A DNA stretch of 46,146 bases from a virus. The DNA lies in IMG/VR virus record IMGVR_UViG_3300032342_001227, positions 1 to 46,146 of that record, one strand, 5' to 3'. The position numbers and the translations under genes were made by a program. Below the pieces are notes generated by a model. That model ran no database searches. It was not told where the DNA came from and worked only from the letters and a program-made list of their open reading frames with translations. Positions 10,990-46,146 of the stretch are shown one piece after another (position 1 is the stretch's first letter; each line of letters begins with the position of its first letter).

Positions 10990-12069
10990 TTATTCTTTCT
11001 TTACATTTTCTTCAATTATAATTATATTATCTTTTAATCGTTTATTATTTGGGTTTTTTTCTGAAGCAATTATCGCATATTTTAATGCCTCTTCAAAATA
11101 TCCCAACTGAAAAGAAGATACACTTAAATAATCCCAAAGTTTATAATCTTCCTCTACAATATCTGTTATTGCTTCAAATGAATTTTCTACTTCTAAACAT
11201 TTTTTACATGCCCAATACATACTTATCCAATCTTCTTTTAATTTAAAAACTTCACATATTTCAACATAAACATCTTTAGAATTAAGATTTTCTCCTAATG
11301 CTCTAAAAAACCATCTTATAGATTTATCAAATTCTCCTTTATACATTAAAGTTTTGGCTACAAATCGCATTGCTAAAGCACGTTCTTCTTTCCAATCAGA
11401 ACGAGGATGATTTAAATATTCTATAAAATATTTAATACTTTCATCCCACATCCCTTTATAAAAATATTGACGAGCTAAATAATAACTACTTCTTTTATTA
11501 TCAGAATTTTCTTTATAATCTAATTCTAACAAAGTTAAATCATCGGGTTTATTTCTATTACTATGATAATGAGACATTGTTAAATTTATAGTTTTTCTAT
11601 TTTCAACAGTATTATTTAATGGAACAAGAACTTCATGTGTTGCGTGTTTAAAAATATATTTATTCAATCTAAATATTCTACTATTATAATATATACTTTT
11701 AGGTTTTCCTGAAGAAAACCAGTTCCAAATATATAAATATTTTAATTGTGTAACAGAATCTTCAATATTTTTAAAATTTTCTTTCCAATTTTCACTCAAT
11801 CGTTCATCTAAATCTAAAGAAATAACCCATGTATTAGAATCATCTTGTGGAAGTAATTTTAAAGCATCATTTCTTGCTACATCATATCTAAATTGTGAAT
11901 AAAATACAGTAGAAACATTAATACCTAAATTTCTTGCTTTTTCTACACTTCCATCAGTAGAACCAGTATCAAGAATAAAAATTCCATCTGCATCTTTACA
12001 AGAATTATAAAAATTTTCTATATTATGTTCTTCGTTCTTCATTATAGAACAAATATAAATTTTATTCAT
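10990..12069 (-). CDS. GT2-like glycosyltransferase with C-terminal TPR-like helices
   Basis: A 359-residue protein. Residues 1-200 are a family-2 glycosyltransferase: ICSIMKNEEHNIENF, ILDTGSTDGSVEKA (nucleotide site), FRYDVARNDAL, ISLDLDERL with the DLD metal motif, and FKHATHEVLVP. Residues about 205-345 form paired helices in TPR style (ARQYFYKGMWDESIKYFIEY, FVAKTLMYKGEFDKSIRWF). This SunS/Alg5-like type of GT with TPR helices is often a protein O- or S-glycosyltransferase, the TPR part holding the acceptor protein. It sits between two fibre genes, so the fibres are the most likely acceptors (inference). AAGGAG precedes the start. Confidence 0.82.
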   Translation of the reverse strand: MNKIYICSIMKNEEHNIENFYNSCKDADGIFILDTGSTDGSVEKARNLGINVSTVFYSQFRYDVARNDALKLLPQDDSNTWVISLDLDERLSENWKENFKNIEDSVTQLKYLYIWNWFSSGKPKSIYYNSRIFRLNKYIFKHATHEVLVPLNNTVENRKTINLTMSHYHSNRNKPDDLTLLELDYKENSDNKRSSYYLARQYFYKGMWDESIKYFIEYLNHPRSDWKEERALAMRFVAKTLMYKGEFDKSIRWFFRALGENLNSKDVYVEICEVFKLKEDWISMYWACKKCLEVENSFEAITDIVEEDYKLWDYLSVSSFQLGYFEEALKYAIIASEKNPNNKRLKDNIIIIEENVKKE

Positions 12070-12084
12070 TTTTCTCCTTGTTAG

Positions 12085-12114
12085 GAGAGAAAGTACTATT
12101 AAGTACTTTCTCTC
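12085..12114 (-). terminator. 13-bp perfect hairpin after the collagen-like fibre gene
   Basis: GAGAGAAAGTACT and its exact complement flank a four-base loop, just past the stop of the collagen-like gene and before the glycosyltransferase ribosome binding site. There is no long T-run, so it may be a processing or attenuating hairpin as well as a terminator. Confidence 0.55.
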
Positions 12115-12117
12115 TTA

Positions 12118-12618
<501 letters not shown>

Positions 12619-27600: not shown

Positions 27601-27855
27601 TCATTCTTTGGGTTTCTGATTAAAAATAATTTTTCCCGATTCAAAATTTGCTTTAATTAATTTAAGTAAAAATCTATTATTTTCATAAATTGAATCTTTA
27701 ACAAGATTCACATAAATTTCTTTTATTTGTAAAAAAGATAAAGACTGTGTATTAGATATGTTTAAATTTTCTAATCGTTTAAGTAATATACCTACTAAAC
27801 TTTTAGAATTATCATTTAAAATATCGGTTAATTTAATTAATTCTTGTTCGTTCAT
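27601..27855 (-). CDS. Small hypothetical protein, 84 residues
   Basis: An 84-residue, helix-rich protein (MNEQELIKLTDILNDNSK) with a strong AAGGAGAGG site, placed between the major tail protein and the chaperone-like genes. No family is recognised. The position suggests a tail assembly factor. Confidence 0.55.
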   Translation of the reverse strand: MNEQELIKLTDILNDNSKSLVGILLKRLENLNISNTQSLSFLQIKEIYVNLVKDSIYENNRFLLKLIKANFESGKIIFNQKPKE

Positions 27856-27885
27856 CTTACCTCTCCTTACAATTTAGCGATAAAG

Positions 27886-27908
27886 GAAGGGGTCATTTTG
27901 ACCCCTCC
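27886..27908 (-). terminator. Hairpin after the major tail protein gene
   Basis: AGGGGTCA and its complement TGACCCCT flank a three-base loop 14 bases past the tail protein stop, with a CCTTCCTTTAT tail on the minus strand. It looks like an intrinsic terminator or a partial one that reduces read-through after an abundantly made protein. Confidence 0.6.
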
Positions 27909-27919
27909 CTCCGCACATA

Positions 27920-29140
27920 TTATGCATCTATTGTTGCTTTTACTGTAGAAATAGTCAAATCCTGACCTGTCAAGGTATTTCCTGCTTCTACATAATTTCC
28001 TATTGATGCTCCACCACGAATTTCTGAAGGTGCTAAATCAATTGCTTTAAAACCAATTTCAAAATCTCCTATTTCTTTTTCTTTATCAGTATACAAATAA
28101 ACTCTTAAAATAAACTTATCTGAAAATTCTCTAATATCAAGTTTTCCAAAATCAGCAACTTGACCTGCCAATATTTCTTCGATTGTAAATGTCTGTAAAA
28201 GTCTTCCTAATGTAATTGTAACTGTCTTTGTCCTAACTCCTCGAAGAACTATTTCACTGTTTCCTATTTCTGAAATATCAAATCTTTCAAGTCTTACATC
28301 TATAGTTACACTTTGTAATCTATAAACATAATTTCCAGAAGCTAAGAAAATAGAAGCAGAATCAGCATGAATTGCAGGAAGGTCTGTATCATTTTCTTCA
28401 AAAGGAACTTCTCCAGACTCAAAAGAACCTGCTGTATACCAATATTTAATAACATCTCCAAGTATACAATCTTCTATCGTTAATGTTCCACCAGATTCAT
28501 AAGTATAATCTGTGTCTTCTACTAATTCGGTAGAAACTCCATTGCTTATTTTTACTACTCTTTGTATAACTTTGCCAGTAATAGGGTCTGTTACTGCAAT
28601 AGGGTCTTCCACTGTAAATTCTATTGTATCTCCAGAAATTATATCTCCTGATTCAATTGTTTCCTTTTTCATAATGAGATACTTATTTGCTCCTTGCCAA
28701 ACTATCCAATCTTCTCCAACAAAATCAAAATTTCTTTGTATAAGAGCCTGTGGGCTTCCTATATTAATAGAAAATCCAGAAAGTCTTAACTTTGGCAACC
28801 ATTGTGTTCCTTTAAAAGTTCCATCATCATCAGTTAAAAAAGCACAAATATCAAAAGTAGATGTTTTGAAATCATTTAAATCAAGAGTATCAATATTATC
28901 TGCAACATTAGCTAATTTATTAAAAAAGCTAATTGAACCATATTCCATCTGAGTTAACCTATAAGTTACCGAAGGCGGTTGATTTACATACTCAACAACT
29001 CCATCTCTTCCTATTTCCTCTACTTTAATTTTATTGAGAGTGCCAGTTTTATCAATAGACTGTGCCCTATCAATATTACTCCAATCGCCAGTTCCTAAAA
29101 CTGGTATAATCTTTGGGTCAAAATCTGTGTAATTTATCAT
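27920..29140 (-). CDS. Major tail (tube) protein
   Basis: A 406-residue beta-rich protein preceded by a strong AAGGAGGA site and followed by a terminator-like hairpin, both expected for an abundant structural protein. It lies upstream of chaperone-like genes and the tape measure, the standard place of the tube protein. An internal Ig-like section is suggested by RVVKISNGVSTELVEDTDYT, SGGTLTIEDCI and VIKYWYTAGSFESGEVPFEE (about 195-250). The C-terminal part (TVTITLGRLLQTFTIEEILA, FILRVYLYTDKEKEIGDFEI) is compatible with the tube-protein fold. There is no sheath gene next to it. Confidence 0.75.
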   Translation of the reverse strand: MINYTDFDPKIIPVLGTGDWSNIDRAQSIDKTGTLNKIKVEEIGRDGVVEYVNQPPSVTYRLTQMEYGSISFFNKLANVADNIDTLDLNDFKTSTFDICAFLTDDDGTFKGTQWLPKLRLSGFSINIGSPQALIQRNFDFVGEDWIVWQGANKYLIMKKETIESGDIISGDTIEFTVEDPIAVTDPITGKVIQRVVKISNGVSTELVEDTDYTYESGGTLTIEDCILGDVIKYWYTAGSFESGEVPFEENDTDLPAIHADSASIFLASGNYVYRLQSVTIDVRLERFDISEIGNSEIVLRGVRTKTVTITLGRLLQTFTIEEILAGQVADFGKLDIREFSDKFILRVYLYTDKEKEIGDFEIGFKAIDLAPSEIRGGASIGNYVEAGNTLTGQDLTISTVKATIDA

Positions 29141-32494: not shown

Positions 32495-32543
32495 TTTGTG
32501 TTCCTCAAAAATTAAAAGTTTAATCTATAACATTTTAAAGAAC

Positions 32544-32572
32544 GGGAGGAGAGAATAATTTTCTCCCCTCCC
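32544..32572 (-). terminator. Terminator-like hairpin after the capsid gene
   Basis: GGGAGGAGAGAA pairs with TTCTCCCCTCCC with one A-C mismatch, five-base loop, six bases past the capsid stop. The minus-strand sequence continues with GTTCTTTAAAATG. A hairpin after a highly expressed gene is expected; genes beyond it must still be transcribed, so it is either leaky or bypassed. Confidence 0.62.
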
Positions 32573-32577
32573 AAGAA

Positions 32578-37248: not shown

Positions 37249-37276
37249 AGAGAGGGGAATAAAATTTCCCCTCTCT
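37249..37276 (-). terminator. 11-bp hairpin after the fibre-like gene
   Basis: AGAGAGGGGAA and its complement flank a six-base A+T loop, ten bases past the stop of the 244-residue fibre-like gene. Minus-strand continuation is TATGGATATTTAAAA, without a clean U-run; the hairpin may attenuate or protect the transcript. Confidence 0.5.
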
Positions 37277-40950: not shown

Positions 40951-43047
40951 TTATGCTCCGCATTTACCATGTCTTTGTTTTAACGTACTTATTGTTTTAG
41001 AAAATCCTTCGTATGCTATTTTCCATTCACAAATAGCAAATACTTGAAATGCTTGCCAAAGATGGTCTTCTTCAGTTGCACATTCATATGAAATGGTATT
41101 TCCTCGTATAATTGCAACAACCGCATTTAATTGTTCATCTAATTTATAATCCAATGGTAAAAATAATAATGCTTCATATAATAAATGACATAATCTTTCA
41201 ACCGACCAAATAGTTGTGTTTTCAAATTTTTGAATTAATTTACCATTATCTCTAATAGGATTTCCTTTAACATCTTTTTCAATACCTACTTCAATTTTTT
41301 CTCCAAAGTCTACCCATATCAATCTACTTTTATCAATTTCGGGGTCTGATTCTAAATATCCATATACTCCTCGACCTGGACTACCACCTGTACAATCTAA
41401 TGCTAAATAATTTGGGTCTAATCTTTGATATAAATATTTAAATATTAAATAAGAATCTTTCTCTGGTAAATTTCTTACTGTAATATTATAAAGATAACGC
41501 CATTTATTATTTATTTCTGCCATCACAATAATTTCTGTTGTACCACCTATTTCTCCAACATCAGAAGCAATTACCAATCTATCAATATGTTGGGGTTTAT
41601 CTACAACACACAAGGCTCGATACATTCCAAAATTCTTTTTATCAATTTCAATGTTTTTAATTGTAACATTTTCATCCAATGTTCCATCTTTTTTTCGAGG
41701 ATAACATAATTCACTTATTCTCTGCATATCAAGTGCAGAAACACCTTCTTGAATTACATCTCCATCTACAAAAACTCTAAAACCTATTGATTGTTTGCCA
41801 CCATATTTTTTAATTGCTTTTTTTTCTTCCTTCTCATCATAATTAGGATTACAATATTGTGGAAGATTAAGTACTTGTTCTGGATGTTCATTTTCAAAGA
41901 ACATTTTTCCAGCAGGAGAATTTTTTGTAAAATTCGTCATGCCAGCTATTCGTTCTACACAATTATGAACAATAAATCCATTTGCTATAAAATTTCCTGT
42001 AGAAGTAGTTAAATCATAACAATCTATATTTTTTTCAAATCCATTTAATTTTATTTCTAAAGAATCTCCCCATAAAATACCTTTATAATTATCTTTTGCA
42101 ATATCTATATAATTTATTGTTTGTGTTTTATAAGTTGTCAAAGAACATTTGATTGCTTCGTTCCATCTATAAATTCTGTGTCCTTTGCTTAAAACTCTAA
42201 TTTTATGGTCTGGAGTAAGCCAAAGATTATGACCATTTTCTTGTAAAATATTGATTACATTTTTATTGCCTTGATAAATAACATTTAAAATTTTAGCTTT
42301 GCATGTTTGATTTTTTTCTTCGTCATAAGCCAAAATTTCATCTCCAATTTTACAGTCTTCTATATTCTTTGTTTTTAAATCGCTTAATAAAATTTTTGAA
42401 CCTTTTGCTACACAGCCCATTTCGTGTCGAGAATCTGCACGTTTTTCGTATACTATTTTATTTTCTTTGCTTGCTTCTTCAATATAAAGTCTTTTAAAAT
42501 GTTTTTGAAAAAATTGGTCTCCTGCTCTTTTACCATCGGCTATATTCATATTTACCGATTCTATAGTTACTCCATTACGAGTAGTTATTCTATAATTCAA
42601 ACCTCTATTAATACTTTTTTTAAAAATTTTCAATATTGGATGATATTCCAATGCTTTTATAATTGTTTCAAGAACTCCCCTGATATGCATCATGTCAAAA
42701 GAACTAAATCCTGCTTCTTCGTTTTCACCAAACATTACATATTCACATGTATCAATTTTTTCTACTGTCCAAGTCTTACCATAACCTCTACCACCAAATT
42801 GAAAAATATTTCCACAATTTTCTTTAAATGCCATTTTTTCTTTTTCTGATAATCCTGGTATATCACTAAAAATACCATACTCCCAAGAAAGCATAGGAAT
42901 TTGTGCTAATCTCATATGAATAAAATCTTCTTCTGTAAAAAGAGCAAGATTATCTGGATTAGAAAATAAACATTCTGCTACACATTGAGAATCATAAAAA
43001 AGTTCCATCCATTCTAATTCAGATTCATTTAATTTTTCTTCTAACAT
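40951..43047 (-). CDS. terL: Terminase large subunit with in-frame mini-intein
   Basis: A 698-residue precursor (547 after splicing) of the DNA-packaging ATPase-nuclease. ATPase: Walker A GGRGYGKT (residues 85-92), Walker B RLYIEEAS (186-193), and downstream of the intein MTNFTKNSPAGK, the coupling segment. Nuclease: RuvC-like acids in VIASDVGEIGGTTEII and YLALDCTGGSPG. The mini-intein occupies residues 212-362, just after Walker B. AAGGAAATT precedes the ATG, close to two small hairpins in the leader. It pumps genome into the prohead through the portal encoded next to it. Confidence 0.92.
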   Translation of the reverse strand: MLEEKLNESELEWMELFYDSQCVAECLFSNPDNLALFTEEDFIHMRLAQIPMLSWEYGIFSDIPGLSEKEKMAFKENCGNIFQFGGRGYGKTWTVEKIDTCEYVMFGENEEAGFSSFDMMHIRGVLETIIKALEYHPILKIFKKSINRGLNYRITTRNGVTIESVNMNIADGKRAGDQFFQKHFKRLYIEEASKENKIVYEKRADSRHEMGCVAKGSKILLSDLKTKNIEDCKIGDEILAYDEEKNQTCKAKILNVIYQGNKNVINILQENGHNLWLTPDHKIRVLSKGHRIYRWNEAIKCSLTTYKTQTINYIDIAKDNYKGILWGDSLEIKLNGFEKNIDCYDLTTSTGNFIANGFIVHNCVERIAGMTNFTKNSPAGKMFFENEHPEQVLNLPQYCNPNYDEKEEKKAIKKYGGKQSIGFRVFVDGDVIQEGVSALDMQRISELCYPRKKDGTLDENVTIKNIEIDKKNFGMYRALCVVDKPQHIDRLVIASDVGEIGGTTEIIVMAEINNKWRYLYNITVRNLPEKDSYLIFKYLYQRLDPNYLALDCTGGSPGRGVYGYLESDPEIDKSRLIWVDFGEKIEVGIEKDVKGNPIRDNGKLIQKFENTTIWSVERLCHLLYEALLFLPLDYKLDEQLNAVVAIIRGNTISYECATEEDHLWQAFQVFAICEWKIAYEGFSKTISTLKQRHGKCGA
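41962..42414 (-). mobile_element. Mini-intein in the terminase large subunit (151 residues)
   Basis: Starts at Cys (CVAKGSKILLSDLKTKNIED), has block B LWLTPDHKIRV with TPDH at intein residues 67-70, and block F IDCYDLTTSTGNFIANGFIV, ends VHN with the next residue Cys. All splice residues (Cys1, TPDH His, penultimate His, Asn, Cys+1) are present, so it should splice. There is no LAGLIDADG or HNH endonuclease; 151 residues is near the minimum for a working intein. Confidence 0.93.
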
Positions 43048-43062
43048 AATTTCCTTATAAGG

Positions 43063-43104
43063 GCGTGGTATTAACTAAGGACTCACCCTTTCGTATATCC
43101 ACGC
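43063..43104 (-). ncRNA. Hairpin element in the terL leader
   Basis: GCGTGG and CCACGC enclose about 30 bases in the 240-base gap before terL, with a short inner AAGG/CCTT stem; an adjoining CCTTATAAGG palindrome ends in the ribosome binding site. It could control terL translation. Farther upstream a 19-bp palindrome (43193-43211, AGCTTTCT/AGAAAGCT) and an 8-bp stem (43125-43148) are also present. Confidence 0.4.
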
Positions 43105-43192
43105 ATCGTGATACAATTGTTTTATGTATTTATGTTTTTTATAAATACTAAAACATAAGAATTATTACTAATAATTCTATTAATCAATAATT

Positions 43193-43211
43193 AGCTTTCT
43201 TAAAGAAAGCT
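43193..43211. repeat. Palindrome in the terL upstream gap
   Basis: AGCTTTCT, three bases, AGAAAGCT, lying in the non-coding 240 bases between the gene at 43288 and terL. It may be a weak terminator read on the plus strand (TTTT follows) or a protein site. Nothing else in that gap resembles a gene. Confidence 0.5.
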
Positions 43212-43287
43212 TTTAATTCATATACTATATTAATATTATAATAGAACTTAAACCGAAAGGATTTGAAACGAAAAACAAAAGCGGAAA

Positions 43288-44130
43288 TTAATCCTGTCCT
43301 GATTCTTTTATATCCCCACTCTCTTTAAGTGGGTCAATATTCTCTTGAACATTATAAATCTTTTTTTCTAACCAATCTATGTATAATATACTTTTACATT
43401 CTTTGCCTAATAAAATTTTAGACATATCCTCTTTAGTAAGTTTTCCTAATTTATAACATTCCCATAACCAATCATTTGCAAGAACTTTATCTTTAAACCA
43501 GGGATGTTTACATGCCTCCCAAACATCGGGTCTCATATAAAACATTATCGGTTTAGAACAATGAGGACATATTCTGAATCTGCTTGCTTGATATTGTTCT
43601 CTAGCCCATTTAAGACACTTCTTTTTAAATTGATTTATATAAAGCAAAGGGTCATCTCCCTTTTGCTCTTGAGCCAATCCTAAAACTTTCTTAATTTCAA
43701 TAATTCTTTCATTTATTTCATTTATTGTTTTAAGTTCCTGAGAAGGAACATCATACATTTCTTTTTCTTTTAATTTTCTAGTATATTCATCATTTACAGC
43801 ATTATAAATTCTTTGTAATTGCATTTCATAAAAAATTAAATTTTTCAAAAGAGCAACATCCGAAGGGTCTTCTATACTTCTAGATTTTACATAAATATCA
43901 AATAATTTTTTTGCTTCCTGTGCTTCTTCTTTACTAACCCAAATACCAACTTCATTTTTTATCGTAATACATTTAGAAGTATCTAATAATTTTTTTTCAA
44001 TATCAGTTCCATATTTCTTATTATAAAGTTCAGAAGCAATTTTAGAAAATTCTTCTTCTGGTGTATCTTTGTACTGTTTAAATTTTCTTAATCTAATTTT
44101 ATATCCTTCAAAATCTGGTCTTTTAGTCAT
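43288..44130 (-). CDS. Putative terminase partner (small-subunit position) with zinc motif
   Basis: A 280-residue protein one gene before terL, the usual place of the small terminase subunit. It is mostly charged helix (KYGTDIEKKLLDTSKC, LKEKEMYDVPSQELKTINEI). Around residues 185-215 are ICPHCSKPIMFYMRPDVWEA and CKHPWF, with C-x2-C and C-x-H that may bind zinc. It ends KESGDIKESGQD. AAGGACTT precedes the start. Small terminases often lack sequence similarity, so the call is by position; a DNA-binding packaging factor is the broader reading. Confidence 0.5.
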   Translation of the reverse strand: MTKRPDFEGYKIRLRKFKQYKDTPEEEFSKIASELYNKKYGTDIEKKLLDTSKCITIKNEVGIWVSKEEAQEAKKLFDIYVKSRSIEDPSDVALLKNLIFYEMQLQRIYNAVNDEYTRKLKEKEMYDVPSQELKTINEINERIIEIKKVLGLAQEQKGDDPLLYINQFKKKCLKWAREQYQASRFRICPHCSKPIMFYMRPDVWEACKHPWFKDKVLANDWLWECYKLGKLTKEDMSKILLGKECKSILYIDWLEKKIYNVQENIDPLKESGDIKESGQD

Positions 44131-44206
44131 AAGTCCTTCTTAGATAATGAGTTAAGAAATTAAAGTGTATTCCTATCCCTTTGTCTATTTATATATAAAA
44201 ATTTAA

Positions 44207-44404
44207 TTATTCCCCAAAACTATCCAGAGGAAATATATTTTTACAATTTTTACAAAGTAAATAAATATTCGTAATCCCATTTCGAGTAACAGTCGCATGA
44301 TACCTTTTACAATTTCTATGTAAATAATCCCATTCCAAGAGGTTAAGACTTGTTTCAAATATAGCTTCTTCTCCCTCATTAATATCATCGGAACTGTCAA
44401 ACAT
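44207..44404 (-). CDS. Small His/Cys protein, first gene of the late block
   Basis: A 65-residue protein, with HRNCKRYHAT and CKNCKNIF providing a CxxH/CxxC-like zinc site. An alternative frame over the same bases is open too, but only this one has the Cys/His pattern and a start with a nearby ribosome site (AGAGG). It is the first protein gene behind the structured leader. Confidence 0.6.
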   Translation of the reverse strand: MFDSSDDINEGEEAIFETSLNLLEWDYLHRNCKRYHATVTRNGITNIYLLCKNCKNIFPLDSFGE

Positions 44405-44542
44405 TTTATTGCCTCTAAGTATTTATATTTAAATGACTTATATCTAAATAAATTGGGCTAAAATCTACCGACCAGGAATCCCCAGTCCATCGTAAACTTT
44501 AGCCCGATAAGAGGGAGGCGATTCATTCCTCCCTTTGAGTTT

Positions 44543-44562
44543 GTTCTGAACATGTTCAGAAC
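44543..44562. repeat. Perfect 20-bp palindrome
   Basis: GTTCTGAACATGTTCAGAAC is exactly self-complementary. It could be the fourth leader hairpin (8-bp stem, CAUG loop) or a protein-binding site for a dimeric regulator about 170 bases downstream of the promoter. Its GAAC-AT-GTTC core resembles but is not a LexA box (which needs four bases between half sites). Confidence 0.85.
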
Positions 44563-44659
44563 TATTTGAATAACCTTCTTCGAGGCTTCAACGTCTTAAA
44601 GCAGTCAAAGAAGGAGTAAATACGGGAAGAGGAGCATATTTAGTGAATTACTTTCGTAA

Positions 44660-44698
44660 TCAGGCAAAAGCTCCTCTTTGAGTGTGTCTTATAGACAT
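44660..44698 (-). CDS. Possible 12-residue leader peptide
   Basis: The ORF MSIRHTQRGAFA starts about 28 bases into the predicted late transcript, with AAGAGGAG (44708-44715) nine bases upstream of its ATG. A second AAGAGGAG copy lies inside the ORF, and both can pair with the downstream CTCCTCTT, giving mutually exclusive structures. This is the layout of a translation-sensitive leader. No similarity evidence. Confidence 0.35.
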   Translation of the reverse strand: MSIRHTQRGAFA

Positions 44699-44731
44699 AT
44701 TTAATCACTCCTCTTTATGCCTCTCACTATA

Positions 44732-44761
44732 AGTATAACATATTTTAAGGTAGTTTGTCAA
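44732..44761 (-). promoter_or_regulatory. Strong sigma70-type promoter for the late block
   Basis: TTGACA (44761-44756), 18 bases, TATACT (44737-44732), with TG one base upstream of the -10 box (extended -10), reading leftward. It would start RNA near 44725, just before the structured leader. It is the best promoter match for the whole leftward structural block. Confidence 0.75.
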
Positions 44762-44813
44762 GTCTGGAGGAAAAATATTTTCCCAACTACTACTTTTAGT
44801 ACACCCCCTTGCT

Positions 44814-44839
44814 AAATAAAACCTCGCCTCTGGCTCGGT
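44814..44839 (-). terminator. Terminator with tandem G-A pairs
   Basis: ACC-GA-GCC, loop AGA, GGC-GA-GGT, followed by TTTTATTT on the minus strand. The two stems are joined by a tandem G-A/A-G mismatch, which forms sheared pairs in RNA. It ends the structured element to its right and insulates the late promoter. Confidence 0.55.
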
Positions 44840-44955
44840 GGCTCTATAACTCCCAAAGAAGTAAATAATAGCTAAGAATCATCCTTGTCTGCCTTTCGGC
44901 AGGGATTCTCTTAGCCATGGCGTTCCTACGCTTAATCTGACCCATTGTAGACAAG
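44840..44955 (-). ncRNA. Second GC-rich structured RNA element
   Basis: Minus strand: CUGCC-GAAA-GGCAG (44889-44902) nested inside GCUAAG...AAUC/GAUU...CUUAGC, then GCGU-AGGA-ACGC, with CUUGUCU (44949-44955) able to pair with AGACAAG (44884-44890) as an alternative. It ends at the terminator at 44814-44839. G+C is 30 of 60 bases at 44881-44940. A 33-codon basic ORF (44844-44945) crosses it without a strong ribosome site; I consider an RNA more likely. No known riboswitch class fits from memory. Confidence 0.45.
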
Positions 44956-45078
44956 AATAACAAATATATTTATATCTATTTTTATATATCATAAATAAGA
45001 ACGGATATAAAATCTATAACTCATTGGTATTATTAAAGATATATTTTTTATATTTTAAAAATAAATATTAAGTAAATA

Positions 45079-45107
45079 TTGACCTAACTAATTGATATTA
45101 TTATACT
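45079..45107 (+). promoter_or_regulatory. Rightward sigma70-type promoter without a gene behind it
   Basis: TTGACC (45079-45084), 17 bases, TATACT (45102-45107). RNA would start near 45114. No ORF longer than 14 codons with a usable start follows within about 300 bases, so the product may be a non-coding RNA. Confidence 0.6.
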
Positions 45108-45181
45108 TATATTTATTCTATTATAATTAATTCTGGCTTCTTCTAAGTTATTAATATTGTATATCGGGCTTTTTTCTTGTA

Positions 45182-45208
45182 GGAACGGAGATGATTTCTA
45201 TCCGTTCC
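45182..45208. repeat. Inverted repeat GGAACGGA/TCCGTTCC
   Basis: Eight perfect pairs around an 11-base loop, in the segment downstream of the promoter at 45079. The core AACGGA also recurs at 45000, 45251-45262 (reverse) and 46138, suggesting a family of sites or an RNA hairpin. Confidence 0.65.
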
Positions 45209-45296
45209 GAGATTGAAATGATGATACGGTCGTAGGCTTTTTATCGTTTTTTGTCCGTTCTGCTAAAAATGACCCTACCTCCTTAGATTGTTGTAA

Positions 45297-45315
45297 CTTG
45301 TTGTAAGACAACAAG
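45297..45315. repeat. Inverted repeat CTTGTTGT/ACAACAAG
   Basis: Eight perfect pairs with a three-base loop, directly after a TTGTTGTAA direct copy. Hairpin-forming on either strand. Confidence 0.7.
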
Positions 45316-45383
45316 GTTTATCATCTTAAAATGTATGATTTTGGGATTCAGTTCTAATAATTGAATTATTTTATTAAATAAAT

Positions 45384-45420
45384 TTAATGTAAACCATTGT
45401 CCCCCAACAGTTTACATTAA
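45384..45420. repeat. Inverted repeat TTAATGTAAAC/GTTTACATTAA
   Basis: Eleven perfect pairs around CATTGTCCCCCAACA. The right arm sequence (G)TTACATTAA recurs at 45464-45473 and 45753-45762, so this may be a set of binding sites; with the later TTATTTTTT it may also serve as a terminator for RNA from 45079. Confidence 0.7.
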
Positions 45421-45509
45421 TTCCTTATTTTTTAATTCTTTATAACCTTATTAATTCCAATAAGTTACATTAATTTAATAAATTGATTAATTAAATCAAT
45501 TTTTTTGAT

Positions 45510-45555
45510 CCTGGTCTATACCAGGCAACAGACTAAGCTTATTGATCCTTAGTCT
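45510..45555. repeat. Pair of hairpins CCTGG/CCAGG and AGACTAAG/CTTAGTCT
   Basis: Two neighbouring inverted repeats (45510-45525 and 45530-45555), both beginning near GATCCT, preceded by AATTGATT/AATCAATT (45481-45501) and a seven-T run. They may form a rho-independent-like terminator followed by control hairpins. Confidence 0.6.
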
Positions 45556-45674
45556 ATTAGTACCTTGTTTATTATTTATCTATTCTTTTAGGTTATTATT
45601 TACTTTTTATTATTTATTGCTTTTAATGATTTAATTTATAATACTACCAAGAAAAAATATTTATTATTAATTAG

Positions 45675-45750
45675 TATAACTTCTTTAATTACAATAACTT
45701 ATAATAATAAAACTATTTTTTAAATTTATTATAACTTATTTAATTATAAT
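45675..45750. repeat. Two 21-bp imperfect direct repeats 55 bases apart
   Basis: Copies at 45675-45695 and 45730-45750 read TATAACTT-N-TTTAATTA-N-AAT and match at 19 of 21 bases. The second lies just upstream of the promoter at 45773, as activator or iteron sites would. Confidence 0.7.
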
Positions 45751-45772
45751 GGGTTACATTAAAAATATTTAT

Positions 45773-45801
45773 TTGACAAGTATTTATTTATGAGTTATAC
45801 T
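45773..45801 (+). promoter_or_regulatory. Consensus rightward promoter for the early-type block
   Basis: TTGACA (45773-45778), 17 bases, TATACT (45796-45801), an almost perfect sigma70-type promoter 27 bases before the ATG at 45828. A GTTACATTAA site and a 21-bp direct repeat lie just upstream. Confidence 0.8.
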
Positions 45802-45827
45802 TAATTAGAAAAACAAAGGATATTAAA

Positions 45828-45929
45828 ATGGCAAGATTAATTAAAAAAATAAAAAATAGGATAAAAGAATTAAGACAGTCAAAATCTTTAACAGTAGATT
45901 ATGTTTTTGTTTTTTATGGCTGGAATTAA
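45828..45929 (+). CDS. Small basic leader protein, 33 residues
   Basis: A 33-residue basic peptide (MARLIKKIKNRIKELRQSKS, then a hydrophobic VDYVFVFYGWN), first gene behind the consensus promoter and with AAAGGA eight bases before its ATG. Such short, highly charged first genes are common in phage early operons and often act on host proteins; no similarity is recognised. Confidence 0.6.
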   Translation: MARLIKKIKNRIKELRQSKSLTVDYVFVFYGWN

Positions 45930-45944
45930 TAAGGATAACTAAAA

Positions 45945-46146
45945 ATGATTAAATTGTTGATACCTATTGACAAAACAAAAAAGTATAAATCAGATTTACG
46001 CGGTTTTTGGTATAGCCAAGAATCAAAAAAATTGTATTATGATTACATTATAACAAAAAGATATAAAAACTCAAATAAAAATTATTTAGAATATTTAAAA
46101 CAAAAGTATAATCAAGAGAGTTTATTTTACCTTCAGAACGGACAAG
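45945..46146 (+). CDS. Hypothetical early-type protein, cut by window edge
   Basis: Open from ATG 45945 (AAGGA site) to the window end, 67 codons and no stop. It starts MIKLLIPIDKTKKYKSDLRG and is rich in Lys, Tyr and Asn (KLYYDYIITKRYKNSNKNYL). No family recognised. Same strand and spacing as the preceding small gene, so probably one transcript. Confidence 0.6.
   Translation, partial: MIKLLIPIDKTKKYKSDLRGFWYSQESKKLYYDYIITKRYKNSNKNYLEYLKQKYNQESLFYLQNGQ

Follow-up and report, generated by a model that had tools for sequence, protein, structure and literature searches.

A short open reading frame in a hairpin-rich leader ahead of the terminase operon of an uncultivated phage, and its candidate role as a translation-coupled gate

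The window, that is the whole 46,146-base virus record that was analysed, has its late genes on the minus strand, where they extend from position 44404 down to 8599. Between the promoter and the first of these genes lies a stretch of about 270 nucleotides whose RNA folds into one hairpin after another. Why should a phage place such an RNA between polymerase and its packaging and virion genes? An earlier note on this DNA had answered with processive antitermination of the HK022 put or Bacillus EAR kind, by which polymerase would pass terminator-like hairpins inside the late block. Here we analyse the leader itself, compare it with the leaders of related phages and weigh the mechanisms that it may serve. 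The features are as follows, all of them on the minus strand.

44761-44732: late promoter, TTGACA-N18-TATACT with its -10 extended by TG; transcription predicted to start near 44725
44455-44725: structured leader RNA with six stems
44698-44660: putative leader ORF ATGTCTATAAGACACACTCAAAGAGGAGCTTTTGCCTGA, with start AUGUCUAU and product MSIRHTQRGAFA, 12 codons
44680-44710: H1, weak (z -2.0), overlapping part of the SD and the start codon
44628-44677: H2 (z -5.1), its 5' arm made of leader-ORF codons and the ORF stop in its loop region
44574-44614: H3 (z -5.3)
44543-44562: H4 (z -3.1), the perfect 20-nt palindrome GTTCTGAACATGTTCAGAAC
44509-44535: H5 (z -2.5)
44455-44505: H6 (z -6.0), a 14-bp stem including G-U pairs, with an inner hairpin
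44207-44404: operon gene 1, 65 aa, with zinc-ribbon-like C/H pairs and without a family match
43288-44130: TerS, named by position; it aligns with the products of the genes that immediately precede TerL in relatives
40951-43047: TerL with an intein-like insert, named by position and a conserved motor-like region, without a family match

Promoter, fold and reading frame of the window leader

The promoter, TTGACA-N18-TGTTATACT, is near-consensus, with 11 of 12 matches and the extended -10, and is the top minus-strand site within 42000-46146. Folding of the minus strand from 44727 to 44440 yields -98.1 kcal/mol, compared with -66.6 +/- 4.9 kcal/mol in dinucleotide shuffles (z -6.45), and none of 200 such shuffles matches it. 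Both results confirm what had been proposed, a strong leftward promoter followed by the folded leader of a late operon, and all six adjacent stems, including H6 with its 14 pairs, are present in the minus-strand fold. In a 100-nt scan of the window's whole minus strand, the segment 44446-44545 comes second among 461 (z -5.5). The G+C content of 44455-44725, which had been put near one half, is 41.3% against 27.7% window-wide, and is therefore raised only.

G-U pairs and a GAAA tetraloop had also been described as confined to the minus-strand RNA, and the case for that strand holds in part. As minus-strand RNA, H3 reaches -18.9 kcal/mol and H6 -26.5 kcal/mol, much better than the -11.1 and -14.2 kcal/mol of their plus-strand counterparts, but the plus strand of the leader also folds well (z -5.44), so that the asymmetry is modest overall and the strand argument rests mainly on these two hairpins. 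A search of the leader against Rfam 15 with gathering and relaxed thresholds gave no match (at E<=5, one meaningless hit); the earlier note, too, had matched the RNA to no riboswitch or large phage RNA class.

What had been overlooked is a 12-codon ORF at 44698-44660, inside the leader RNA. It begins within about 30 nt of the predicted transcription start and is preceded by an SD (AGGAG) at a spacing of 9 nt from the AUG. In shuffles of the first 65 nt of the leader, ATGTCTAT arises 17 times in 20,000, and together with a properly spaced SD once in 20,000. Part of the leader looks coding. The putative ORF spans H1 into H2, where it takes up the 5' arm and ends in the loop region; when the fold is constrained by placing a ribosome on the ORF stop, H2 is lost while H3-H6 stay. 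One copy of AAAGAGGAG (44716-44708) lies at the SD and a second (44679-44671) in the ORF, and either copy can pair with CUCCUCUU (44634-44627). The SD/anti-SD pairing of the window is equalled by 25 of 500 shuffles, and such long-range pairing was rejected as a family-wide switch (mean z -0.24).

We note that strong minus-strand hairpins also stand between late genes, at 12060-12125, 27850-27930, 32543-32573 and 37249-37276, one of them directly after the coat-like gene. Their 5' arms are mostly purine-rich and their U-tracts poor. Further into the operon, the insert in TerL is a Hint / Intein_splicing domain at residues ~203-362 that is missing from the aligned relatives.

A leader plan shared by related phages

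No close homologue of the window leader was found. Comparison of its DNA with GenBank phages returned chance pieces only, and tblastn of the coat-like protein (MCP) and TerL against the same phages gave no match, hence no isolate of the lineage. Likewise, neither the gene-2 protein nor the portal, each searched by itself, found anything in viral contigs, and TerL found nothing in bacterial genomes. We turn to relatives gathered from IMG/VR by a promoter-pattern scan and by profile scans with TerL, the coat protein and a second TerL profile. These are uncultivated phages, tens in number, whose terminase, portal and coat genes are homologous. A pattern scan with TATACTTATA..ATATGTCTAT returned two family phages already in the set, its other records being without family genes.

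Most members of one clade of these phages share a common plan ahead of the terminase operon. It consists of a promoter of the same type as in the window and an RNA that often starts with AGAGG; an SD and a short ORF follow, the latter in many cases starting with AUGUCUA, and then come an intrinsic terminator with a U-run and the first gene. In at least 17 related phages, an intrinsic terminator with a U-tail separates this type of promoter from the terminase operon. We quantified 16 leaders that were chosen for having promoter and U-tailed terminator, so that their number is no test in itself; shuffles of those 16 leaders yield 0.14 terminators. Between the terminator and the first gene lie 17-66 nt, and at most 47 nt in 14 of the 16, which leaves no room for a further promoter in most leaders. 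With the terminator lying between the sole evident promoter and the first gene, it must be passed conditionally.

The position of the ORF stop relative to this terminator is regular, too. An early AUG (no later than nt 60) occurs in 13 leaders, and in all 13 the in-frame stop is placed between 15 nt inside the stem and 18 nt before it, as against 2.6 expected from shuffled ORF bodies, with a P of ~1e-10 that is somewhat flattering given that the bounds of the interval were fixed after the first nine leaders had been viewed. The rule was, on the other hand, set down before the second terminase scan, and the newly found L094/L095, L096, L100 and L131 obey it. L093 and L120, which have their leader farther upstream, fit by eye, and three leaders (L042, L050, L092) have the terminator and no early AUG. 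This placement of the stop points to a logic of ribosome-held antitermination.

The start of the ORF recurs as well. TGTCTA (UGUCUA in the RNA) occurs in the first 65 nt of 10 of the 16 leaders, compared with 0.18 expected, and ATGTCTAT starts only 1 of 144 other ORFs (of at least 100 aa). A conserved leader peptide was nevertheless rejected, for M-S-(I) alone recurs and UGUCUA is out of frame in L094 and L100. Examples of the ORFs are MSMIICFFKILFNIEHTLSVYN (L043), MSICIKILWLNI (L046), MSIYYLYRYS (L047), MSIINILYITTGVISS (L131) and MSMSFLYINLGVSIY (L120). An unconserved peptide fits a frame whose translation itself matters. It also weakens the reading in which each leader ORF is simply a small gene ending in a terminator of its own, a reading that the stops 3-18 nt before the stem would fit.

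Two relatives deserve separate mention. L003 has, at 1327-1401, a second promoter of the same type, the RNA of which begins with AGAGCAG, complementary to CTGCTCT about 70 nt downstream. In L112 (~1990-2030), the terminator begins nearly at the predicted transcription start, and a 3-codon frame, MRV*, stops in its loop.

How does the window relate to this plan? It has a promoter of the family type (TTGACA-N17/18-TGNTATAMT-type) ahead of its terminase operon and, like the clade, an SD with a short AUGUCUA-starting ORF. Its coat protein reaches up to ~56% to relatives inside the leader clade. The TerL tree, by contrast, places the window on a long branch outside that clade, and the relatives' terminator scan found no U-tailed terminator in the window leader. 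The tails of H2-H6 score 0.12-2.62 vs mostly 2.7-5.9 in relatives, two of which have tails at only 1.5-1.8 because the U-run begins two bases past the stem. H6, followed by the poor U-tract AAUUUAUUUAG, scores 1.30. Its end nonetheless lies about 50 nt from the first gene, which is the position of the relatives' terminator. The ORF stop, in turn, falls in the loop region of H2, which has no U-tract, and the relation of H2 to the stop resembles that in L041, L093 and L100. Two properties of the relatives' terminator are in this way split in the window between H2 and H6.

The six stems themselves are carried by no relative found, and a conserved multi-hairpin RNA is absent from the same site in the relatives. 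The nearest coat-protein relative, L069, offers no leader sequence, its record ending inside TerL. In the sister clade (L048, L051, L110, L112-L116), we find no six-hairpin leader and instead scattered structured stretches, some of which are tRNA genes. With coat-protein relatives of the window inside the leader clade, the leaders of the window and of its relatives are nonetheless likely to share descent. Control of termination at the site of the window leader is likewise likely, given that the relatives carry a terminator there. The earlier idea of control over termination is to this extent supported by the relatives, and its put/EAR form is unsupported. The obstacle that it had placed inside the late block is, in the relatives, present in the leader as well.

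A candidate translation-coupled gate and its alternatives

Taken together, the anatomy, its recurrence among relatives and the statistics are best explained by the leader acting as a translation-coupled attenuator of pyrBI-like logic that would gate the terminase and virion genes, including a version in the window. We give this reading a probability of roughly 0.47. Host RNA polymerase would initiate at the near-consensus promoter, and a ribosome would load at the SD and the AUGUCUAU start within ~30 nt and translate a short ORF of unconserved sequence. In the relatives, this ORF ends at or inside the U-tailed terminator that directly precedes the terminase operon. A leader without translation would then lead to termination, whereas in a translated leader the terminator would be held open and late transcription would proceed. 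The reading supposes that a ribosome translates the ORF and serves as the antiterminator, and that the terminators are functional but conditionally bypassed.

The window retains the promoter, the SD and the AUGUCUAU ORF, with the 5' arm of H2 made up by the ORF and the stop in the loop region. H6 stands in the terminator's place before the first gene, the canonical U-tract gone, and the U-poor hairpins would have to belong to the same scheme. Against a gate in the window itself stand the missing canonical U-tract, TerL outside the clade and the position of H6, which lies 150 nt past the leader ORF, too distant for a ribosome on the ORF to shield it. The leader element is therefore well supported at the level of the family, and is a stronger finding than the window's own mechanism, which we infer.

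The closest known parallel is the pyrBI attenuator of E. coli, with its SD-led leader ORF (pyrL) and an intrinsic terminator before the operon. There, a ribosome on the leader ORF that is coupled to polymerase prevents the intrinsic terminator from forming, read-through occurring when the ribosome closely follows polymerase (PMC5021804). Here, the operon is a phage late operon, the ORF begins with AUGUCUAU and the window has no U-tailed terminator. The placement of the stop differs too, for the pyrL ORF stops beyond its terminator, whereas in the relatives the stop is usually just before or in it. The likeness extends to U-runs inside the ORF of some relatives, which are possible pause sites: L003, L041, L043 and L044 have runs of 6-8 T within the leader ORF. 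By analogy with pyrBI, polymerase might pause at these runs in a nucleotide-sensitive manner.

To gate their late genes, phages rely on Q-like proteins, sigma factors of their own or phage RNA polymerases. Were a leader ORF and a terminator to serve as the gate, no regulator protein from the phage would be required, and virion output would be tied to the host's translation or nucleotide state; a search of the open-access literature found no paper describing such a leader-ORF late gate. A bolder extension holds that the whole lineage gates packaging and virion genes by a throw-away ORF, with the ribosome holding the terminator open, and that in the window the two copies of AAAGAGGAG compete for the CUCCUCUU arm, which may together form a multi-hairpin switch. 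If true, late expression would read the cell's translation state. We regard this extension as doubtful.

The alternative that survives best replaces the ribosome with a protein. As in the lambda PR'-tR'-Q system, transcription from a constitutive promoter would stop early at the leader terminator, which a phage factor would later bypass; such a factor offers a competing logic (PMC7171158), perhaps loading near the promoter via the UGUCUA region, with the leader ORF secondary. Indeed, the relatives show a strong promoter and then a terminator to be passed before the late genes, and the recurrence of UGUCUA out of frame in L094 and L100 means that it is possibly a nucleotide signal. What a Q-like factor leaves unexplained is the tie of the leader ORF to the terminator, with 13 of 13 ORF stops placed there. 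In addition, the window has no canonical terminator, and no antiterminator or Q-like protein was named among the window proteins scanned, a subset of the genes (19 against PHROGs and 10 against Pfam). We hold this explanation to be unlikely.

Somewhat less probable again is a role of the hairpins in the stability or processing of the late mRNA, at whose 5' end their array would be a target of RNase or a shield from it, with no part in controlling termination. The poor terminator tail of H6 agrees with such an array, as do the similar U-poor hairpins between late genes at the positions given above. It would, however, account neither for the SD and AUGUCUAU ORF common to the relatives nor for their terminators at the same place.

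A cis-acting antitermination RNA, the original proposal, we now consider improbable. The strong structure directly after the promoter recalls HK022 put, whose hairpins likewise open a phage transcript, and hairpins that polymerase would have to pass do exist inside the late block. Yet put is an RNA of ~70 nt with two stems on early transcripts (PMC9378689), whereas the window has six stems over 270 nt of a partly coding-like late leader, and the relatives have no such structure at this site. The Rfam scan returned no put match, which would speak against membership insofar as Rfam carries a put model. The leader shares with Bacillus EAR and LoaP-type leader antitermination a structured leader on a long operon, and differs in having no conserved RNA among relatives. 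The EAR covariance model is in Rfam, and no EAR match was obtained in Rfam 15 at either threshold. Membership in either class is hence not upheld.

Finally, a DNA site for packaging (cos/pac) or an operator that folds as RNA by chance is very improbable, since, for all its position adjoining the terminase genes and the perfect palindrome of H4, G-U pairs make H3 and H6 far stronger as minus-strand RNA and the relatives examined have no such repeats at this site.

The sequence upstream of the promoter shows features of its own. The stretch 44770-45000 is richer in G+C and folded (z -2.55), and ARAGORN found no tRNA in it; tRNA-array-like sequences precede the terminase operon in some relatives (L048, L050-L052). 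Farther upstream, three AT-rich 46-nt direct repeats (70-78% identity) at window positions 45428-45762 lie beside a 16-bp hairpin at 45384-45420, and could together represent a replication origin or iterons.
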